From an uncultured Agathobaculum sp. (GTDB taxonomy: Bacteria > Bacillota > Clostridia > Oscillospirales > Butyricicoccaceae): a stretch of DNA of 44,221 bases. The notes under the pieces are model-generated. The model did not search any database. It was given only the letters and a program-made list of their open reading frames with translations, and was not told the origin of the DNA. The translations under genes and the position numbers were made by a program. Below are positions 11,017-39,695 of this stretch, in pieces. The stretch is from positions 1 through 44,221 of the forward strand of contig NZ_CALWJK010000013.1 in the NCBI RefSeq assembly GCF_944380975.1, given 5' to 3'. The number at the start of each line of letters is the position of its first letter. Position 1 is the stretch's first letter.

Positions 11017-11778
11017 TTACGCGCCGAACCGCATTTGCAGCCGCAGCCGGTCGGCAATCATCGAAATGAATTCAGAGTTGGTCGGTTTTCCCTTGACGCC
11101 CGAAACCGTATAACCGAAATAGCTTTGCAGCGTTTCGATATCGCCGCGGTCCCACGCCACTTCGATGGCATGTCGGATGGCTCGTTCCACACGCGAAGAA
11201 GTGGTTTTAAATTTCTTGGCAATCGAGGGATACAGCACCTTTGTGATCGCGCTCACCGCTTCCATATCATTGACCGCCATCATAATTGCTTCCCGCAGAT
11301 ACTGGTAGCCCTTGATATGCGCCGGCACGCCAACCTGATGAATCACCTCAGTCACGCGCACCTCGAGCGCTTTGCCTTCCCCCGACGGGGCTTCCTCCTG
11401 CTTTCCCTCTCGCCACAGGCGAATGCGTTCACACACCCGCTCGGCTTCCATCGGCTTGCGCAGAAACATATCCACGCCCAGCGCAGTGCATTCCGCACCA
11501 GCCTGCGGACTGGCAAAAGCGGAAAGAACCACCACCGCCGTCTTGTTCTGTTCCTGACTGCGCAGTCGGCTGATAACCGAAATGCCGTCCATCACCGGCA
11601 GCACCAGATCAATGATGAGCACATCCGGCCGCAGCTCCTGCACAGCTGCAAGGGCCTTTCCGCCATCCTCTGCCATTCCAACCAGTTCCATGTCGTCTGC
11701 TTTTTCCAGCGCCGCTGCCATACGTGCGCAAAATTCGCTGTCGTCGTCCGCGAGCAATACCCGGATTTTCTGTTCCAT
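11017..11778 (-). CDS. spo0A: sporulation master response regulator Spo0A
   Basis: Spo0A, when phosphorylated, binds 0A boxes and commits the cell to sporulation. The 253 residues comprise a receiver domain with acidic pocket Asp11-Asp13, phospho-acceptor Asp57 (VLIIDLVLP) and Lys108 (LRKP), then a linker (about 120-140), then the C-terminal DNA-binding domain with [19 protein letters not shown] and the recognition-helix segment [16 protein letters not shown]. The length is normal. It is downstream of spoIVB, the conserved order in endospore formers. It has its own promoter and three upstream 0A boxes, which suggests direct autoregulation. Confidence 0.98.
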
Positions 11779-25678: not shown

Positions 25679-26206
25679 TTATTCCTCGCCTTCGATCAGG
25701 CCGTAACCGCCTGCCGCACGCTTGTAAACGACCGCATGAATATTGTTGTCGTCCGCATTGCGGAAGAAGTAGAACTGATGGTCGAGCAGATTCATCTGCA
25801 GGATCGCTTCGTCCACGCTCATGGGCTTAACGTCAAACTTCTTGCGGCGCACGATATCGAAATCCTCTTCCGACAGCGCGGCCTGCTGCTCCGCGATCTT
25901 ATCAAACGCGCCCTCACGCAGGCGCTTTTCCAAACGGGTCTTGTGCTTGCGGATCTGGCGCTCGATGCTGCTGATGGCACCGTCCACGGATGCAAACATG
26001 TCGGTCGTGGTTTCCTCCGCGCGCACGACCAGTCCGGCCTGGCGCACTGTAATTTCCACGGTTTGCTTGCCGCGCAGCTCGCTGAAGGTCAGTGTCGTGT
26101 CGGAATCCTGATGAAAATACCGATCCAGCTTTTCGACCTTGCGCAGCGCGTATTGCCGCAGATCGTCGTCAATTTTCATTTTTCTCTCGACGATGGTAAA
26201 CTTCAT
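25679..26206 (-). CDS. hpf: ribosome hibernation promoting factor, long form
   Basis: Long HPF binds the 30S decoding region and pairs two ribosomes into inactive 100S dimers in slow growth or stress. The 175 residues show the N-terminal S30AE domain (about 1-100, MKFTIVERKMKIDDDLRQYALRKVEKLDRYF) and the C-terminal dimerisation domain (about 122-175, KKFDVKPMSVDEAILQMNLLDHQFYFFRN). AGGAG precedes the ATG. About 170 bp upstream hold no gene. They contain TATACT at 26304-26299 with a TTGGAC 19 nt away, a weak promoter guess. Confidence 0.96.
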   Translation of the reverse strand: MKFTIVERKMKIDDDLRQYALRKVEKLDRYFHQDSDTTLTFSELRGKQTVEITVRQAGLVVRAEETTTDMFASVDGAISSIERQIRKHKTRLEKRLREGAFDKIAEQQAALSEEDFDIVRRKKFDVKPMSVDEAILQMNLLDHQFYFFRNADDNNIHAVVYKRAAGGYGLIEGEE

Positions 26207-26379: not shown

Positions 26380-27222
26380 TCAAATCTCGCCCTCTGCATG
26401 GCGCGTGACATGGCAGGAGATATTCACCACGCACGGCAGGCCTGCGATATGCGTGCCGAACGGCTCGATCGCACAGGAAAGCGCGGTCACTGTGCCGCCG
26501 AGTCCCTGCGGGCCGACGCCCGAGGCATTGACCTTGTCCAGAATCGCCTGCTCCATTTCCGCATACAGCGGATCGGCGTTGTGTTCTCCCACCGGACGCA
26601 GCAGCGCGCGCTTGGCCAAGAACGCCGCCTTATCGCTCGTGCCGCCCAAACCTACGCCAATCACGATCGGCGGGCAGGGGTTTGAGCCTGCGTTGATGCA
26701 GGCATCCGCAATGAAATCCACGATCTGCTCTTTGGTCGCGGCGGGCGTGAACATCTTCATCGCGCTCATGTTCTCCGAGCCAAACCCCTTGGGCGCAACC
26801 GTAATGCGCACCTTGTCACCCGGCACGATCGAGGTATACAGCACGCATGGCGTGTTGTCGTTCGTATTCTCGCGGCGCAGCGGATCGCCCACGACGGACA
26901 GGCGCAGATAACCGTCGATATAGCCGCGGCGCACGCCCTCGGTCACCGCGTCCTCAAATGCGCCGCCCGTCAGGTGCACATCCTGTCCGACCTCGGCAAA
27001 CACGATCGCCATGCCGGTGTCCTGACAGACCGGCACATCGTTTTCGCGCGCCAGATCACAGTTTGCGATCATCTCACCGAAAATCTCCCTGCCAAGCGGC
27101 GACTGCTCAGCCTGCTGGCCGTCCACGAACGCCTGCCGCAGATCAGCGGGCAGGTAATAGTTTGCGTCGATGCACAGCTGCCGCACCAGCTTTGTTACTT
27201 CCGAAACGTCGATCGTTCTCAT
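26380..27222 (-). CDS. class I fumarate hydratase (or tartrate dehydratase) alpha subunit
   Basis: The alpha subunit of two-subunit, oxygen-sensitive 4Fe-4S hydratases interconverts fumarate and malate in the TCA or reductive branch. The 280 residues carry three candidate cluster cysteines in PVCQDTG, GSNPCPP and NISCHVTRH. The beta subunit, normally the adjacent gene of about 185 residues, is absent: only 173 bp separate this stop from hpf. ATG at 27222 overlaps the amidohydrolase stop by 4 nt, with GGAGGA inside the upstream gene, so the two are translationally coupled. Tartrate dehydratase specificity cannot be excluded. Confidence 0.9.
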   Translation of the reverse strand: MRTIDVSEVTKLVRQLCIDANYYLPADLRQAFVDGQQAEQSPLGREIFGEMIANCDLARENDVPVCQDTGMAIVFAEVGQDVHLTGGAFEDAVTEGVRRGYIDGYLRLSVVGDPLRRENTNDNTPCVLYTSIVPGDKVRITVAPKGFGSENMSAMKMFTPAATKEQIVDFIADACINAGSNPCPPIVIGVGLGGTSDKAAFLAKRALLRPVGEHNADPLYAEMEQAILDKVNASGVGPQGLGGTVTALSCAIEPFGTHIAGLPCVVNISCHVTRHAEGEI

Positions 27223-28391
27223 GTTGTCCTCCTGTATTCCAGTGCGCCGTTTACCCAAACGGCCTGCACTTGAGTTGCAAAATCCAGCGGGTCGCCGCTC
27301 CACAGCACGCAGTCTGCATCTAGCCCAACCTGCAAACTGCCGATACGCTGCGCCATGCCCGCAATCTGCGCCGGCACCGACGTGACCGCGCGCAGCGCAT
27401 CGGTTTTATCCATCCCCGCGCGCACGGCAAGCATCAGCGCCATCGGCAGAAGCCGCAGCGGAATCTCCGGATGATCGACCGTGATGGCGGTCGGGATGCC
27501 CGCGCGGGCAAGAATACCCGGTGCTGCATCGGTCAGGTTTCGCAATTCCGGCTTGGAGCGATCGGTCATATACGGCCCGCTCACGACCGGCACGCCCTCT
27601 GCCGCCAGCAAATCGGCCACCAAATGCGCTTCCGTGCCGTGCACAATGACCGGCTTGATAGCAAACTCCTTGGCAATACGCAGCGCGGTAAAGATATCGT
27701 CCGCGCGGTGGGCATGGAAATGCGCCTCGATCTTACCCCAGAGCAGCGGCAGAAGCGCCTCCAGCTTTGCGTCGTAGTCCGGCCCGTCGTCCTCCGGGTC
27801 ACTCTCAGCACGCTCTTTCCGCGCCAAATACTCCTTGGCCTTATATAACTGCTCCCGCATCAGCGCAGCCGTCGCCATGCGGGTGACCGGGCTTTCATCC
27901 TTATCGTGATAGACTGACTTCGGGTTTTCTCCGAGCGCAAATTTGATCGCCAGCGGCGCTTTGAGCACCATATCGTCCACCCGACGTCCCGCTGTTTTGA
28001 TGAGCGCAATCTGCCCGCCGATTGGGTTCGCGCTGCCCGGGCTGACCGCGGTCGCGGCCACACCGGCCTCGACCGCTTCGCGGAACGCGCGGTCCATCGG
28101 ATTGATGCCGTCGATCGCGCGCAGATGCGGCGTGACGGGATCGGTGTCCTCGTTGCCGTCCGCGCCCTCGAAGCCCAGCCCGTCCTCATACAGACCGAGA
28201 TGGGAATGAATGTCGATCAAACCGGGTGTCAAAACACCGCCCGCGCCATCGAACACCTGCTCGCAGTCCGGTGGTGCCTGCGTGCCTGTGGCGACGATTT
28301 TCCCATCCTCGATGAGTACCCAGCCGGAGAAGCGCGTGTCCGCCTCGTCCATCGTCCAAACGGTTACGTTTTGAATCAGCAGTTGTTTCAT
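27219..28391 (-). CDS. amidohydrolase family protein
   Basis: This 390-residue protein has the amidohydrolase TIM-barrel plan: the N-terminal beta domain (about 1-55), then GLIDIHSHLG with metal ligands His62 and His64, later EAHFHAHRADD, VIVHGTEAHL and AITVDHPE, and the closing beta domain GSLQVGLDADCVLWSGDPL. Relatives are called imidazolonepropionase-like or prolidase-like; no substrate can be read. ATG at 28391 has GAGG upstream. On the minus strand TTCAAC, 17 nt, CATATT in the region overlapping the divergent small RNA promoter is a possible promoter. The coupled fumarase subunit is unexplained. Confidence 0.88.
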   Translation of the reverse strand: MKQLLIQNVTVWTMDEADTRFSGWVLIEDGKIVATGTQAPPDCEQVFDGAGGVLTPGLIDIHSHLGLYEDGLGFEGADGNEDTDPVTPHLRAIDGINPMDRAFREAVEAGVAATAVSPGSANPIGGQIALIKTAGRRVDDMVLKAPLAIKFALGENPKSVYHDKDESPVTRMATAALMREQLYKAKEYLARKERAESDPEDDGPDYDAKLEALLPLLWGKIEAHFHAHRADDIFTALRIAKEFAIKPVIVHGTEAHLVADLLAAEGVPVVSGPYMTDRSKPELRNLTDAAPGILARAGIPTAITVDHPEIPLRLLPMALMLAVRAGMDKTDALRAVTSVPAQIAGMAQRIGSLQVGLDADCVLWSGDPLDFATQVQAVWVNGALEYRRTT

Positions 28392-28413: not shown

Positions 28414-28442
28414 TTGACATAACTGGCAAAATATGGTATATT
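28414..28442 (+). promoter_or_regulatory. promoter of a candidate small RNA
   Basis: TTGACA (28414-28419), 17 nt, TATATT (28437-28442): one mismatch to consensus. No protein gene lies downstream on this strand, and a terminator follows within 100 bp. Confidence 0.85.
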
Positions 28443-28446
28443 AACC

Positions 28447-28537
28447 ATGGCAGTTGAAAAGCTGCCATGCACCGTTCATATCTTTATCCCCACAATCCTA
28501 CTTTTGGCGCTCTTCCGCGAGGAAGGGCGCATTTTTT
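28447..28537 (+). ncRNA. candidate small RNA, about 90 nt
   Basis: From the expected start near 28447, the transcript would form a 10-bp hairpin closed by a GAAA tetraloop (28446-28469), an approximately 37-nt unpaired, C-rich linker (28470-28506) with CCCC (28488-28491) and AATCC segments, and a GCGA-tetraloop terminator (28507-28530) followed by T6. The linker could pair with G-rich Shine-Dalgarno regions, as C-rich loops do in Gram-positive sRNAs such as RsaE/RoxS. The sequence matches no family I know. It lies between the divergent amidohydrolase gene and the convergent S1-protein gene. No ORF with an RBS fits it. Confidence 0.62.
28507..28537 (+). terminator. terminator of the candidate small RNA
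   Basis: A 10-bp stem (28507-28516 with 28521-28530, GCGA loop, one G-U pair) is followed by A and T6. Confidence 0.88.
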
Positions 28538-28579
28538 GCGTGTTTCCGCAAAATCTGTCGGATACGGCGGGATAAAAAC

Positions 28580-28603
28580 AAAACCGAGGTCGCCCTCGGT
28601 TTT
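28580..28603. terminator. terminator after the S1-domain gene
   Basis: A perfect 10-bp stem (28580-28589 with 28594-28603, TCGC loop) with A4 and T4 arms lies 5 bp past the minus-strand gene and can also stop plus-strand readthrough of the small RNA. Confidence 0.9.
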
Positions 28604-28608
28604 TCTGT

Positions 28609-29064
28609 TTATCTGCGGCGACGCGAACCGTTTTTACGGTCGGTCGCATGACGAACATCCGCCTGACGGCTTTCGCTGTCCGACATAAACGCCTTCAATT
28701 TATCCTCGAAGCTCATCGTCGCAGGGTCCTTCGGCTGCTGTGCCGCACGCCCGCGCGGTGCAGCGGAACGCTGCTGAAAACGCGGTTGACGGGCCGCAAA
28801 ACCGCCTGACCGCTCCGGCCGCTGCTCCTGTGGCTGCGCTTTCTTGATCGACAGGTTGATGCGTCCGGCCTGGTCAATGTTGATGATCTTGACCTTGACC
28901 GTCTGCCCTTCCTGCAGAAAATCTTTGATATCGTTGACAAAGCTGGACGCAACCTCAGAGATATGCACCATGCCCGACTTGCCCTCCGGCAACGCAACGA
29001 ACGCGCCGAATTTGGTAATGCCCGTTACCTTACCTTCTACAATCGTTCCCACTGCCAAATCCAT
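28609..29064 (-). CDS. S1 domain RNA-binding protein (YabR-like)
   Basis: This 151-residue protein has one S1 domain at about 1-72 (VGTIVEGKVTGITKFGAFVALPEGKSGMVHISEVA), then a low-complexity, Arg/Gln/Pro-rich tail ending in SRRRR. YabR and GSP13-like proteins associate with ribosomes or stress responses; the role here is inferred. Position after divIC matches B. subtilis yabR. ATG at 29064 has GGAGG 14 nt upstream, a rather long spacing. Confidence 0.9.
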   Translation of the reverse strand: MDLAVGTIVEGKVTGITKFGAFVALPEGKSGMVHISEVASSFVNDIKDFLQEGQTVKVKIINIDQAGRINLSIKKAQPQEQRPERSGGFAARQPRFQQRSAAPRGRAAQQPKDPATMSFEDKLKAFMSDSESRQADVRHATDRKNGSRRRR

Positions 29065-37362: not shown

Positions 37363-39297
37363 TTAGCACAGCTTCGAGCCGGCTTCAATCGCATCATCGA
37401 GCATGAGCAGATTGAGTTTGCCGTCCTTCTCGGCGGACAGCAGCATACCGTTCGACTCCTGCCCCATCATCTTGCGCGGCGGCAGGTTGGTGACGGCAAC
37501 AACCGTCTTGCCGACAAGTTCCTCCGCCTTATAATACTTGGCAATACCCGACAGGATCTGGCGCGGCGTGCCCGAGCCATCATCCAGCTGGAATTTGAGC
37601 AGCTTTTCGCTCTTCTTGACATTCTCGCAAGCCAGCACCTTGCATACGGTCATATCGACCTTGCAGAAGTCGTCAAACGGAATATCCGGCAGGAAGGTGA
37701 CAGCCGGCTTTTCCGGCTCCATCTGCGCCTTCTTCTCCTCCTCAATCTCGGCCAGCTTCTTCGGGATGTCGATGCGCTCGAACAGAATGGACGCTTCGCC
37801 CACCGATGCGCCCGCGGTCATGCCGCCGAACGCTGCAAGGCTCTCGACGCCCTTGTCCTCGGTGCCCAGCTGCGCGAAGATCTTGTCCGCCGTCTCCGGC
37901 AGATACGGGCGCAGCATGGTCGCCGCAAAGCGGATGGATTCAAGCAGGTTGTACAGCACCGTGCCCAGACGGCCCTTCTTGGCTTCGTCCTTCGCGAGCG
38001 CCCACGGCATGGTCTCGTCGATATACTTGTTCGAGCGGCGCAGCAGCGCAAACACCTCATCGATCGCGTCCGCAACGTGCAGGTCGGCCATGCGCTTTTC
38101 AACCGCAGCAGGCAGGCCAAGCGCAACTGCCTTCAGCTCGTCATCCACCGGCTCGGCATCCGCCAGAGCAGGCACGATACCGTCAAAATACTTTTTGGTC
38201 ATCGCAATCGTGCGATTGACCAGATTACCGAGTACGTTTGCAAGCTCCGAGTTGATACGCTCGCAGATCAGCTCATAGGAGATCACGCCGTCGTTGGCAA
38301 ACGGCATCTCATGCAGCACATAGTAGCGCACCGCGTCAACACCGAACAGACGCACCAGATCGTCTGCATAAATCACGTTGCCGAGCGACTTGGACATCTT
38401 GCCCTCGCCCACGAGCAGCCACGGGTGACCGAATACCTGCTTGGGCAGCGGCTCGCCCAGCGCCATCAGGAAGATCGGCCAGTAAATCGTGTGGAAACGA
38501 ATGATATCCTTGCCGATCAGGTGCACATCCGCCGGCCAGAACTTCTTGTAATGCTCGTCATGGTTGCCGTCCGGATCGTAGCCGCAGAAGGTGATATAGT
38601 TGGTCAGCGCGTCCAGCCACACATACACAACGTGACCGGGGTCGAAATCAACTGGGATGCCCCACGAGAACGAGGTGCGCGATACGCACAGGTCTTGCAG
38701 GCCGGGCTTCAAGAAGTTGTTGACCATCTCATTCTTGCGGCTCTCCGGCTGGATGAACTCCGGATGCTCCTCGATGTGCTTCATCAGACGATCGGCATAC
38801 TTGCTCATGCGGAAGAAGTAAGCCTCCTCCTCCTCATCCACGACCGGGCGGCCGCAGTCCGGGCAGCAGCCATCCTTGAGCTGGCTCTCGGTCCAGAAGG
38901 ACTCGCAGGGCTTGCAGTACTTGCCCTTATAGCTGCCCTTGTAGATATCGCCCTGATCGTACAGCTTCTTGAAAATCTTCTGCACTTTCTTCTCATGCAT
39001 CGGGTCGGTCGTGCGGACAAACTTGTCGTAGGTGGTGTTCATCAGGTCCCAGATCTCCTTGACCTGTCCTGCGACATTGTCGACGTGCTGCTGCGGCGTG
39101 ATGCCCGCAGCCTCCGCCTTTTCCTGAATCTTCTGGCCGTGCTCATCGGTGCCGGTCTGGAAATAAACGTCATAGCCAGTCAGGCGCTTATAGCGCGCGA
39201 TGGCGTCGGCCAGCACGATCTCATACGTGTTGCCGATATGCGGCTTTGCCGAGGTATAGGCAATCGCCGTCGAGATATAGTAGGGTTTCTTGTCCAT
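37363..39297 (-). CDS. metG: methionyl-tRNA synthetase
   Basis: MetG charges tRNA-Met. The 644 residues show HIGN (HIGH box, near 20-23), a zinc knuckle (YCKPCE and CCPDCGRP, about 126-150), KMSKSLGN near 300, and a C-terminal EMAP-like tRNA-binding domain (about 540-644, with [12 protein letters not shown]). This is the typical form of Bacillota. AAAGGAG lies 9 nt before the ATG. Its leader is a Met-specific T-box, so uncharged tRNA-Met should release transcription. Confidence 0.98.
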
Positions 39298-39365: not shown

Positions 39366-39660
39366 ACAAAAAGCCCTCCTCCCCGAATGAATATCATCCA
39401 AGGACGAGAGCAAACCGCTTCCGTGTTACCACCTTGCTTCACGCGCCCCTCGCGGCGGCGCGCCTTAACGGGTACTGCCATACCCCGATCCGATAACGGG
39501 AATCCCCCGCCGCAGCCTATGGCGGGCATACCGCCGGTCGGTGCGGTGCTCCGAGGCCATTTTCCGCCGCGCCCTTCGCATCCCGCTTGCACCATCCGGG
39601 ACTCGCTTTGCCGTACTGCGCCGCGTACTTTCCTCTTCATCGCCGTGTTGCCGATAGAAT
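39366..39660 (-). promoter_or_regulatory. T-box leader, methionine-specific, with terminator
   Basis: Evidence on the minus strand: the T-box sequence AAGGTGGTAACACGG (39435-39421) with the acceptor-pairing TGGT; Stem I signs GAAGAGGAAAGTA, GCGAGTCCCGG and GGTGCAAGC; and a specifier ATG (39560-39558) followed by G. The terminator is a 17-bp stem with one mismatch (39373-39389 with 39395-39411), then TTTTTGTTT. The transcript start is near 39660. The Met codon and the metG gene agree. Confidence 0.93.
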
Positions 39661-39666
39661 GGTTTC

Positions 39667-39695
39667 ATTATAGCATTGCCCGTGAGCACTGTCAA
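39667..39695 (-). promoter_or_regulatory. metG promoter
   Basis: On the minus strand TTGACA (39695-39690), 17 nt, TATAAT (39672-39667): exact sigma-A consensus. Confidence 0.95.

Follow-up and report, generated by a model that had tools for sequence, protein, structure and literature searches.

The window analyzed here is a stretch of 44,221 nucleotides from an uncultured Agathobaculum sp. (Butyricicoccaceae, Oscillospirales). Between a gene for an amidohydrolase and a gene for an S1-domain protein, which we take to be YabR-like, a near-consensus sigma-A-type promoter with no gene behind it leads into a hairpin, a C-rich linker and an intrinsic terminator (Table 1). All of these elements had been placed correctly by an initial annotation of this DNA, which proposed an unannotated small RNA (sRNA) matching no known family. 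The promoter ranks second best among 21 promoter-like matches in the 20 kb scanned and is retained in most of 14 aligned homologous loci. The initial annotation had set the transcript start at 28447; since the -10 box ends at 28442, the usual spacing makes a start nearer 28449 more likely. The fold of positions 28447–28540 had an energy of −33.8 kcal/mol versus −21.4 ± 3.1 for shuffled sequences (z −4.0, none of 200 as good), and the core of the linker was predicted to be unpaired in the isolated transcript. Comparison with 4227 Rfam families returned no family at the cut-off for the window, nor any at gathering score for 20 homologous loci, in agreement with the claim that no known family is matched. 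With its own promoter and intrinsic terminator and no conserved ORF, the locus has the makeup of a stand-alone intergenic trans-acting sRNA gene. On the comparative evidence described below, it is a stand-alone gene for a predicted non-coding sRNA of about 89 nt, belonging to a real and apparently undescribed family. A second, bidirectional terminator-like hairpin was observed at 28580–28603, in the gap separating the sRNA from the convergent S1-domain gene.

Table 1. Features of the sRNA locus and its neighbours (positions in the window).
Feature	Position	Strand	Basis or remark
hpf (ribosome hibernation factor, S30AE)	25679..26206	-	Pfam; best conserved upstream neighbour
Fumarase gene	26380-27228	-	one gene beyond amidohydrolase
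Amidohydrolase gene	27219-28391	-	adjoins the sRNA on the left
Sigma-A-type promoter TTGACA-17-TATATT, TG before -10 (extended -10)	28414..28442	+	11 of 12 consensus positions
-10 box TATATT	28437-28442	+	promoter element
5' hairpin (stem 1) CATGGCAGTT-GAAA-AGCTGCCATG, up to 10 bp, GAAA loop	28446..28469	+	fold and covariation; outer pairs may be untranscribed
Whole single-stranded linker, 37 nt	28470..28506	+	sequence and fold
Unpaired core CCGTTCATATCTTTATCCCCACA, 23 nt, proposed seed	28472..28494	+	identical in 82 of 83 family loci
CCCC within linker	28488-28491	+	sequence
Intrinsic terminator, 10 pairs, GCGA loop (stem 28507-28530), then T6 (28532-28537)	28507..28537	+	sequence and covariation
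S1-domain protein gene, convergent with the sRNA, beside divIC, yabQ and yabP	28609..29064	-	Pfam

A 141-base query matched 86 of the 87 genomes of the window's family at E ≤ 1, and a homologous locus containing the core was recovered from 83; the remaining four genomes (G036, G040, G068 and G077), which are 65–81% complete, produced weak or no matches. The only locus in which the core was not letter-identical (L028, genome G014) differs at the last base. For the 82 loci having 60 nt or more of sequence ahead of the core, mean pairwise identity was 0.998 over a 24-nt core, versus 0.431 for the preceding 24-nt block, 0.419 for the block that follows and 0.345 for the one beyond that. The unpaired C-rich linker emphasized in the initial annotation indeed holds the most conserved part of the gene. 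Because the gene is present in nearly every genome of the family and its unpaired core is far stricter than the sequence on both sides, it is likely to be important, and the question is posed of how a 23-nt single strand can be letter-perfect across a bacterial family while both flanking stems drift freely. One core site per genome was found in all 27 family genomes of the order sample. An exact 20-nt scan of a collection of 84,980 species retrieved 88 stretches; the 80 listed included Agathobaculum, Butyricicoccus, Intestinibacillus, many unnamed Clostridia and Oscillospiraceae bins and others, and one match was titled Intestinimonas butyriciproducens (L145). The viral collection yielded no core match and plasmids only three weak, chance-like ones, and spread of the sRNA by phages or plasmids was rejected on these grounds.

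Covariation in relatives, which the initial annotation had named as a check of its proposal, was assessed with 24 sequences for each hairpin and was found in both, giving the gene the covarying secondary structure expected of a trans-acting sRNA. For stem 1, with a set of 24 chosen hairpins sharing the stem type of the window, one row being visibly misaligned, 92.0% of cells were paired and 48 were doubly changed, versus a mean of 15.5 in shuffles (none of 500 as high), and sliding the strands as a control lowered pairing to 24–53%. Two of the five measures, namely pairs changed on both sides (69 of 500 shuffles) and further pair types (329 of 500), were not beyond shuffles. No compensatory change was seen at the outermost two pairs of stem 1, unpaired in 5 and 7 rows of the 24 relatives, as expected if those pairs are not transcribed. 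For the terminator, using 24 sequences hand-chosen from 61 deduplicated core-to-terminator sequences, 90.2% of cells were paired and 38 were doubly changed, versus 12.0 in shuffles. A simple search found at least eight of nine pairs directly before the core in 43 of the 78 loci ending in CACCG, versus 2.1% of shuffles; the remaining 35 did not reach this level, many having stems of different size or offset. Genera g6 and g8 to g15 of the window's family (f1), together with family f3, have different 5' sequences, and most of their folds viewed (promoter included; four were folded as transcripts) place a predicted stem on either side of the core. Taken together, the alignments show that the gene is conserved as a predicted RNA, in which two covarying hairpins surround an almost invariant unpaired core.

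The surroundings of the gene were compared across loci. The initial annotation had put the sRNA beside a fumarase gene, a position that the amidohydrolase gene in fact occupies, and an upstream fumarase gene was detected in 25 of the 54 loci whose left flank reaches 2.85 kb or more. In the same 54 loci, hpf lay upstream in 51, no more than 300 nt away in 11. On the right, where divIC, yabQ and yabP are all on the minus strand in the window, the S1-domain gene, divIC, yabQ or yabP was found on the opposite strand in 70 of the 80 loci whose right flank spans 1.4 kb or more. A right-hand marker was also present at 9 of 20 loci of other families (L233, L235, L237–L241, L243 and L249) and at the f3 loci L132–L134; at several other-family loci (such as L230–L232 and L234) none of the neighbour markers was found. 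Judged from gene order, the putative sRNA gene is shown to have been inherited mostly in place.

Sequence searches pointed to homologs in five more families of the order, f2, f3, f7, f13 and f15, beside f1. Family f3 has a near-exact core with CCATTCAT or CAATTCAT replacing CCGTTCAT (9 of 295 genomes of the order sample). A model built from 24 sequences (R1) gave matches at E ≤ 0.01 in 79 of the 245 order genomes searched, although many of those scoring under about 27 bits are probably terminators matched by chance, as are L242 and L245. Clear new members were found with it in f13 (e.g. G120, 1.7e-11), f7 (G200, 3.1e-10) and f15 (G122, 7.0e-8). A second model (R2), built from 20 sequences, came out without base pairs and therefore scores sequence only; at E ≤ 0.001 it matched 41 of 197 genomes, all in f1, f2, f3, f7, f13 and f15, partly by construction because members of the same families were among its training rows. 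The core reads UUCAUAUCUUUAUCCCACAACCC or similar in f7 and f13, GCUCAUAUCUUUUAUCCCCAACCC in two of the three f15 loci and GCCUAUCUUUAUCCCAUAACCC in f2; one C is missing in f13 and f7, and two of the three f15 loci carry an extra T. The f13 loci L246 and L249, with the more distant core GUUCAUUCCAUUCUCC, are less certain members. Families f7 and f13 possess a second conserved word, GCTTATCC, just after the -10 box and near the expected start (L230, L231, L233, L234 and L238), which occurred in 10 of 110 upstream regions versus 0.44 in shuffles. In class samples outside the order nothing rose above controls: the near-exact core was found class-wide in 5 of 245 genomes, two being family members, versus 5 genomes for a control pattern, and R2 gave three matches in 291 genomes, of which two were family members and the third was partial and weak. 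One sense-strand core outlier in another family (G312) lies in an open frame that, by eye, resembles a glycoside-hydrolase gene.

The window encodes Rex at 1572–2207; the initial annotation had called a metabolic role plausible from the fumarase gene and a Rex-encoding genome. RsaE/RoxS, its model for the sRNA, is under the control of ResD and Rex; a simple Rex-like operator pattern was present in none of 83 upstream regions here, and the suggested role finds no support in this result or in the inconstant presence of fumarase. Other motifs recurred. Of 110 upstream regions, each at most 200 nt long, 23 contained TTCGACA or its complement, versus 2.6 in single-base shuffles (never more than 7 over 50 rounds), and 42 contained TTTCCA/TGGAAA, versus 11.7, enrichments that we treat as leads from sequence, the shuffles ignoring relatedness. 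TTCGACA or its complement matches the Spo0A box TTTGTCGAA, and 23 of 24 such sites share one direction. The motif resembles a reversed Spo0A box and precedes the sRNA gene in families f7 and f13 and in a number of f1 genera (L232, L236, L238, L066, L079, L083 and L086). In L066, L083 and L086 (genus g13) and L079 (g15), 21 nt separate its end from the -10 box, as judged by eye in four loci of two genera, a spacing that we take to be close to that of the Spo0A-driven spoIIG promoter. The window encodes Spo0A (C-terminal domain at 11044–11355), and its own sRNA promoter is without TTCGACA. Repeats of TTTCC/GGAAA were also observed around the -35 box in L065, L050, L041, L132 and L133, with an inverted pair CAATTTCC...GGAAATTG in L065; they are perhaps the operator of some regulator.

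The initial annotation had suggested that the CCCC could pair with Shine-Dalgarno sequences and had called for target prediction with the linker. The complement of the core, GGGGATAAAGATATGAACGG, has the spacing of a Shine-Dalgarno stretch plus start codon, with GGGGATAAAGATATGA reading as a Shine-Dalgarno-like stretch, an 8-nt spacer and a start codon. No conserved target emerged from the pairing tests run, which covered 392 genes, a 15-nt wobble scan, pyrG, pepD, the neighbouring genes and hpf. Against the start regions of 392 genes predicted in 400 kb of a single relative of the window's genus, the core paired with a mean of −11.7 versus −10.9 (sd 0.74) for 60 shuffled cores keeping CCCC, about one s.d. 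stronger. A single long target was rejected: across 295 genomes, with up to three mismatches permitted, the 23-nt complement was not seen away from the sRNA loci. When the central 15 nt were searched with wobble pairs permitted, 54 genomes gave 16 matches in addition to their 54 sRNA loci, versus 9 for the reversed pattern; of the four matches inspected, one was at a start codon. In genome G041, a calcineurin-like phosphoesterase gene carries GGGGATAAAGATATGAA, a perfect 17-nt complement located exactly at the Shine-Dalgarno sequence and start codon (L327, 1501–1517), with a duplex energy of −27.8 kcal/mol; this pairing was not kept in 12 other homologs, mostly from Agathobaculum and including that of the window (−9.5 to −20.9). 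For pyrG (30 loci) the mean was −13.6 versus −11.9, with 7 of 60 shuffles as good and strong pairing at 7 of the 13 Agathobaculum loci but at 2 of the 17 from elsewhere, and for pepD, with 5 of 30 loci scorable, 4 of 60 shuffles were as good; neither is supported as a conserved target. The start regions of the amidohydrolase gene, the S1-domain gene and spoVB did not go beyond controls (z −1.1, 0.4 and −0.4), and those of hpf (50 distinct) gave −11.5 versus −9.4 with 4 of 60 shuffles as good, which is suggestive only and not significant. For pyrG, pepD, hpf and the 392 genes alike, the mean energy tends toward pairing, in no case significantly.

By analogy with RsaE/RoxS, the best explanation, which we consider probable, is that the C-rich core pairs with mRNAs. 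RNA polymerase would start near 28449, the 5' hairpin would protect the 5' end and the terminator would end the RNA; the core, kept open between the two stems, would pair with several mRNAs, on or close to the ribosome-binding site, and so block or alter translation. Counting against the pairing reading is that every letter of the 23-nt core is frozen, which is stricter than a seed needs. The main rival, to which we give a minor but real share of the probability, takes up this point: the core would bind a protein, such as an RNA chaperone, a ribosome-associated factor or a regulator, and act as a decoy or scaffold instead of by base pairing. Uniform conservation of all 23 positions with no conserved complementary target would fit such binding, as would linkage to hpf and, in many loci, to the S1-domain protein gene; yet core length and letters vary between families, unpaired C-rich stretches are typical of pairing sRNAs, and the hpf linkage may equal plain positional inheritance. 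Extreme conservation of the core and the tie to hpf would also suit pairing mainly with ribosomal RNA or another stable RNA, which appears improbable, given that on the 16S, 23S and 5S rRNAs of E. coli, taken as a yardstick, four versions of the core scored within about 1.2 s.d. of shuffled cores. Unlikely, and bolder, is the idea that the core is a near-universal antisense of a translation-start region, by which one order-wide sRNA would lower ribosome loading on many mRNAs when growth stops. If this were true, the tie to hpf and the Spo0A-box-like site of some lineages would make the sRNA an RNA arm of the translation shutdown of stationary phase and sporulation in gut Clostridia.

Readings that take the RNA out of the center fare worse. 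That the core is a DNA element which happens to be transcribed, a DnaA-box-like site or the site of another protein, is highly improbable: its segment TTATCCCCACA resembles the DnaA box TTATCCACA, and the single site in each of 27 family genomes would be in keeping with such an element, but two extra C break the box, and the hairpin and terminator that enclose the core vary in sequence while their pairing is maintained. Still harder to credit is a small protein gene or a leader for a neighbour. An ATG does open a frame at 28467 in the window (MHRSYLYPHNP...); however, this ATG is missing in many genera, the cores of other families contain indels, all codon positions are equally frozen within the family and the terminator falls inside the frame, and for a leader there is no co-directional gene close downstream in the window. 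Coding by the forward frame or by the reverse-strand frame MNGAWQLFNCHG was rejected on account of the indels and lost starts in relatives.

As described in two reports (PMC4409812, PMC5419742), RsaE/RoxS of Staphylococcus and Bacillus is a stand-alone sRNA, conserved within its group, whose C-rich stretches are unpaired and would be expected to contact ribosome-binding sites rich in G; no occurrence of Rex turned up in the text of PMC4409812. The resemblance in layout drawn in the initial annotation stands, the sRNA of the window being likewise stand-alone, Gram-positive and endowed with an unpaired C-rich stretch, but RsaE/RoxS has four C-rich regions where the window's family has one long CCCC-containing core. 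The second GCTTATCC of f7 and f13 doubles the UUAUCC word, placing one TTATCC near the 5' end beside that of the core, somewhat like the C-rich regions in RoxS. RsaE/RoxS pairs with mRNA start regions, for which the signal here is about one s.d. over controls in 392 genes. It differs, too, in belonging to other bacteria and in that the present sRNA has no Rfam match at gathering score; if included in the families compared, RsaE/RoxS was absent among the seven matches up to E 10 at the site. Work by Geissmann in 2009 on the Rsa sRNAs of S. aureus reportedly proposed that an unpaired UCCC motif hits Shine-Dalgarno sequences; a short word is involved there, whereas the whole 23-nt stretch is fixed in the window's family. 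The best sub-threshold Rfam match at the site was NmsRb of Neisseria (RF02877; 29.5 bits versus a cut-off of 52), which shares a hairpin, an open linker and a GC-rich terminator ending in GCGCAUUUUU, but stem and terminator account for most of the aligned letters. CsfG is a conserved sporulation sRNA of endospore-forming Firmicutes, and the present RNA is likewise conserved in sporulating Firmicutes; it is set apart, by description, by its sigma-A-type promoter and the lack of an Rfam match at gathering score. A literature search on the letters of the core, on Butyricicoccus small RNAs and on Oscillospirales small regulatory RNAs found no description. The sRNA may be present, unnamed, among the 3161 intergenic candidate RNA structures of human microbiomes reported by Fremin and Bhatt 2021 (PMC8040213).

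Elsewhere in the window, the T-box search of Rfam scored 65.7 bits at 39397–39695 on the minus strand, below its cut-off of 93, and the candidate was therefore missed by the search at cut-off. There, a promoter matching 12 of 12 positions (39695) leads into a probable T-box leader, which precedes a gene that, by eye, resembles that of methionyl-tRNA synthetase (37363–39297).
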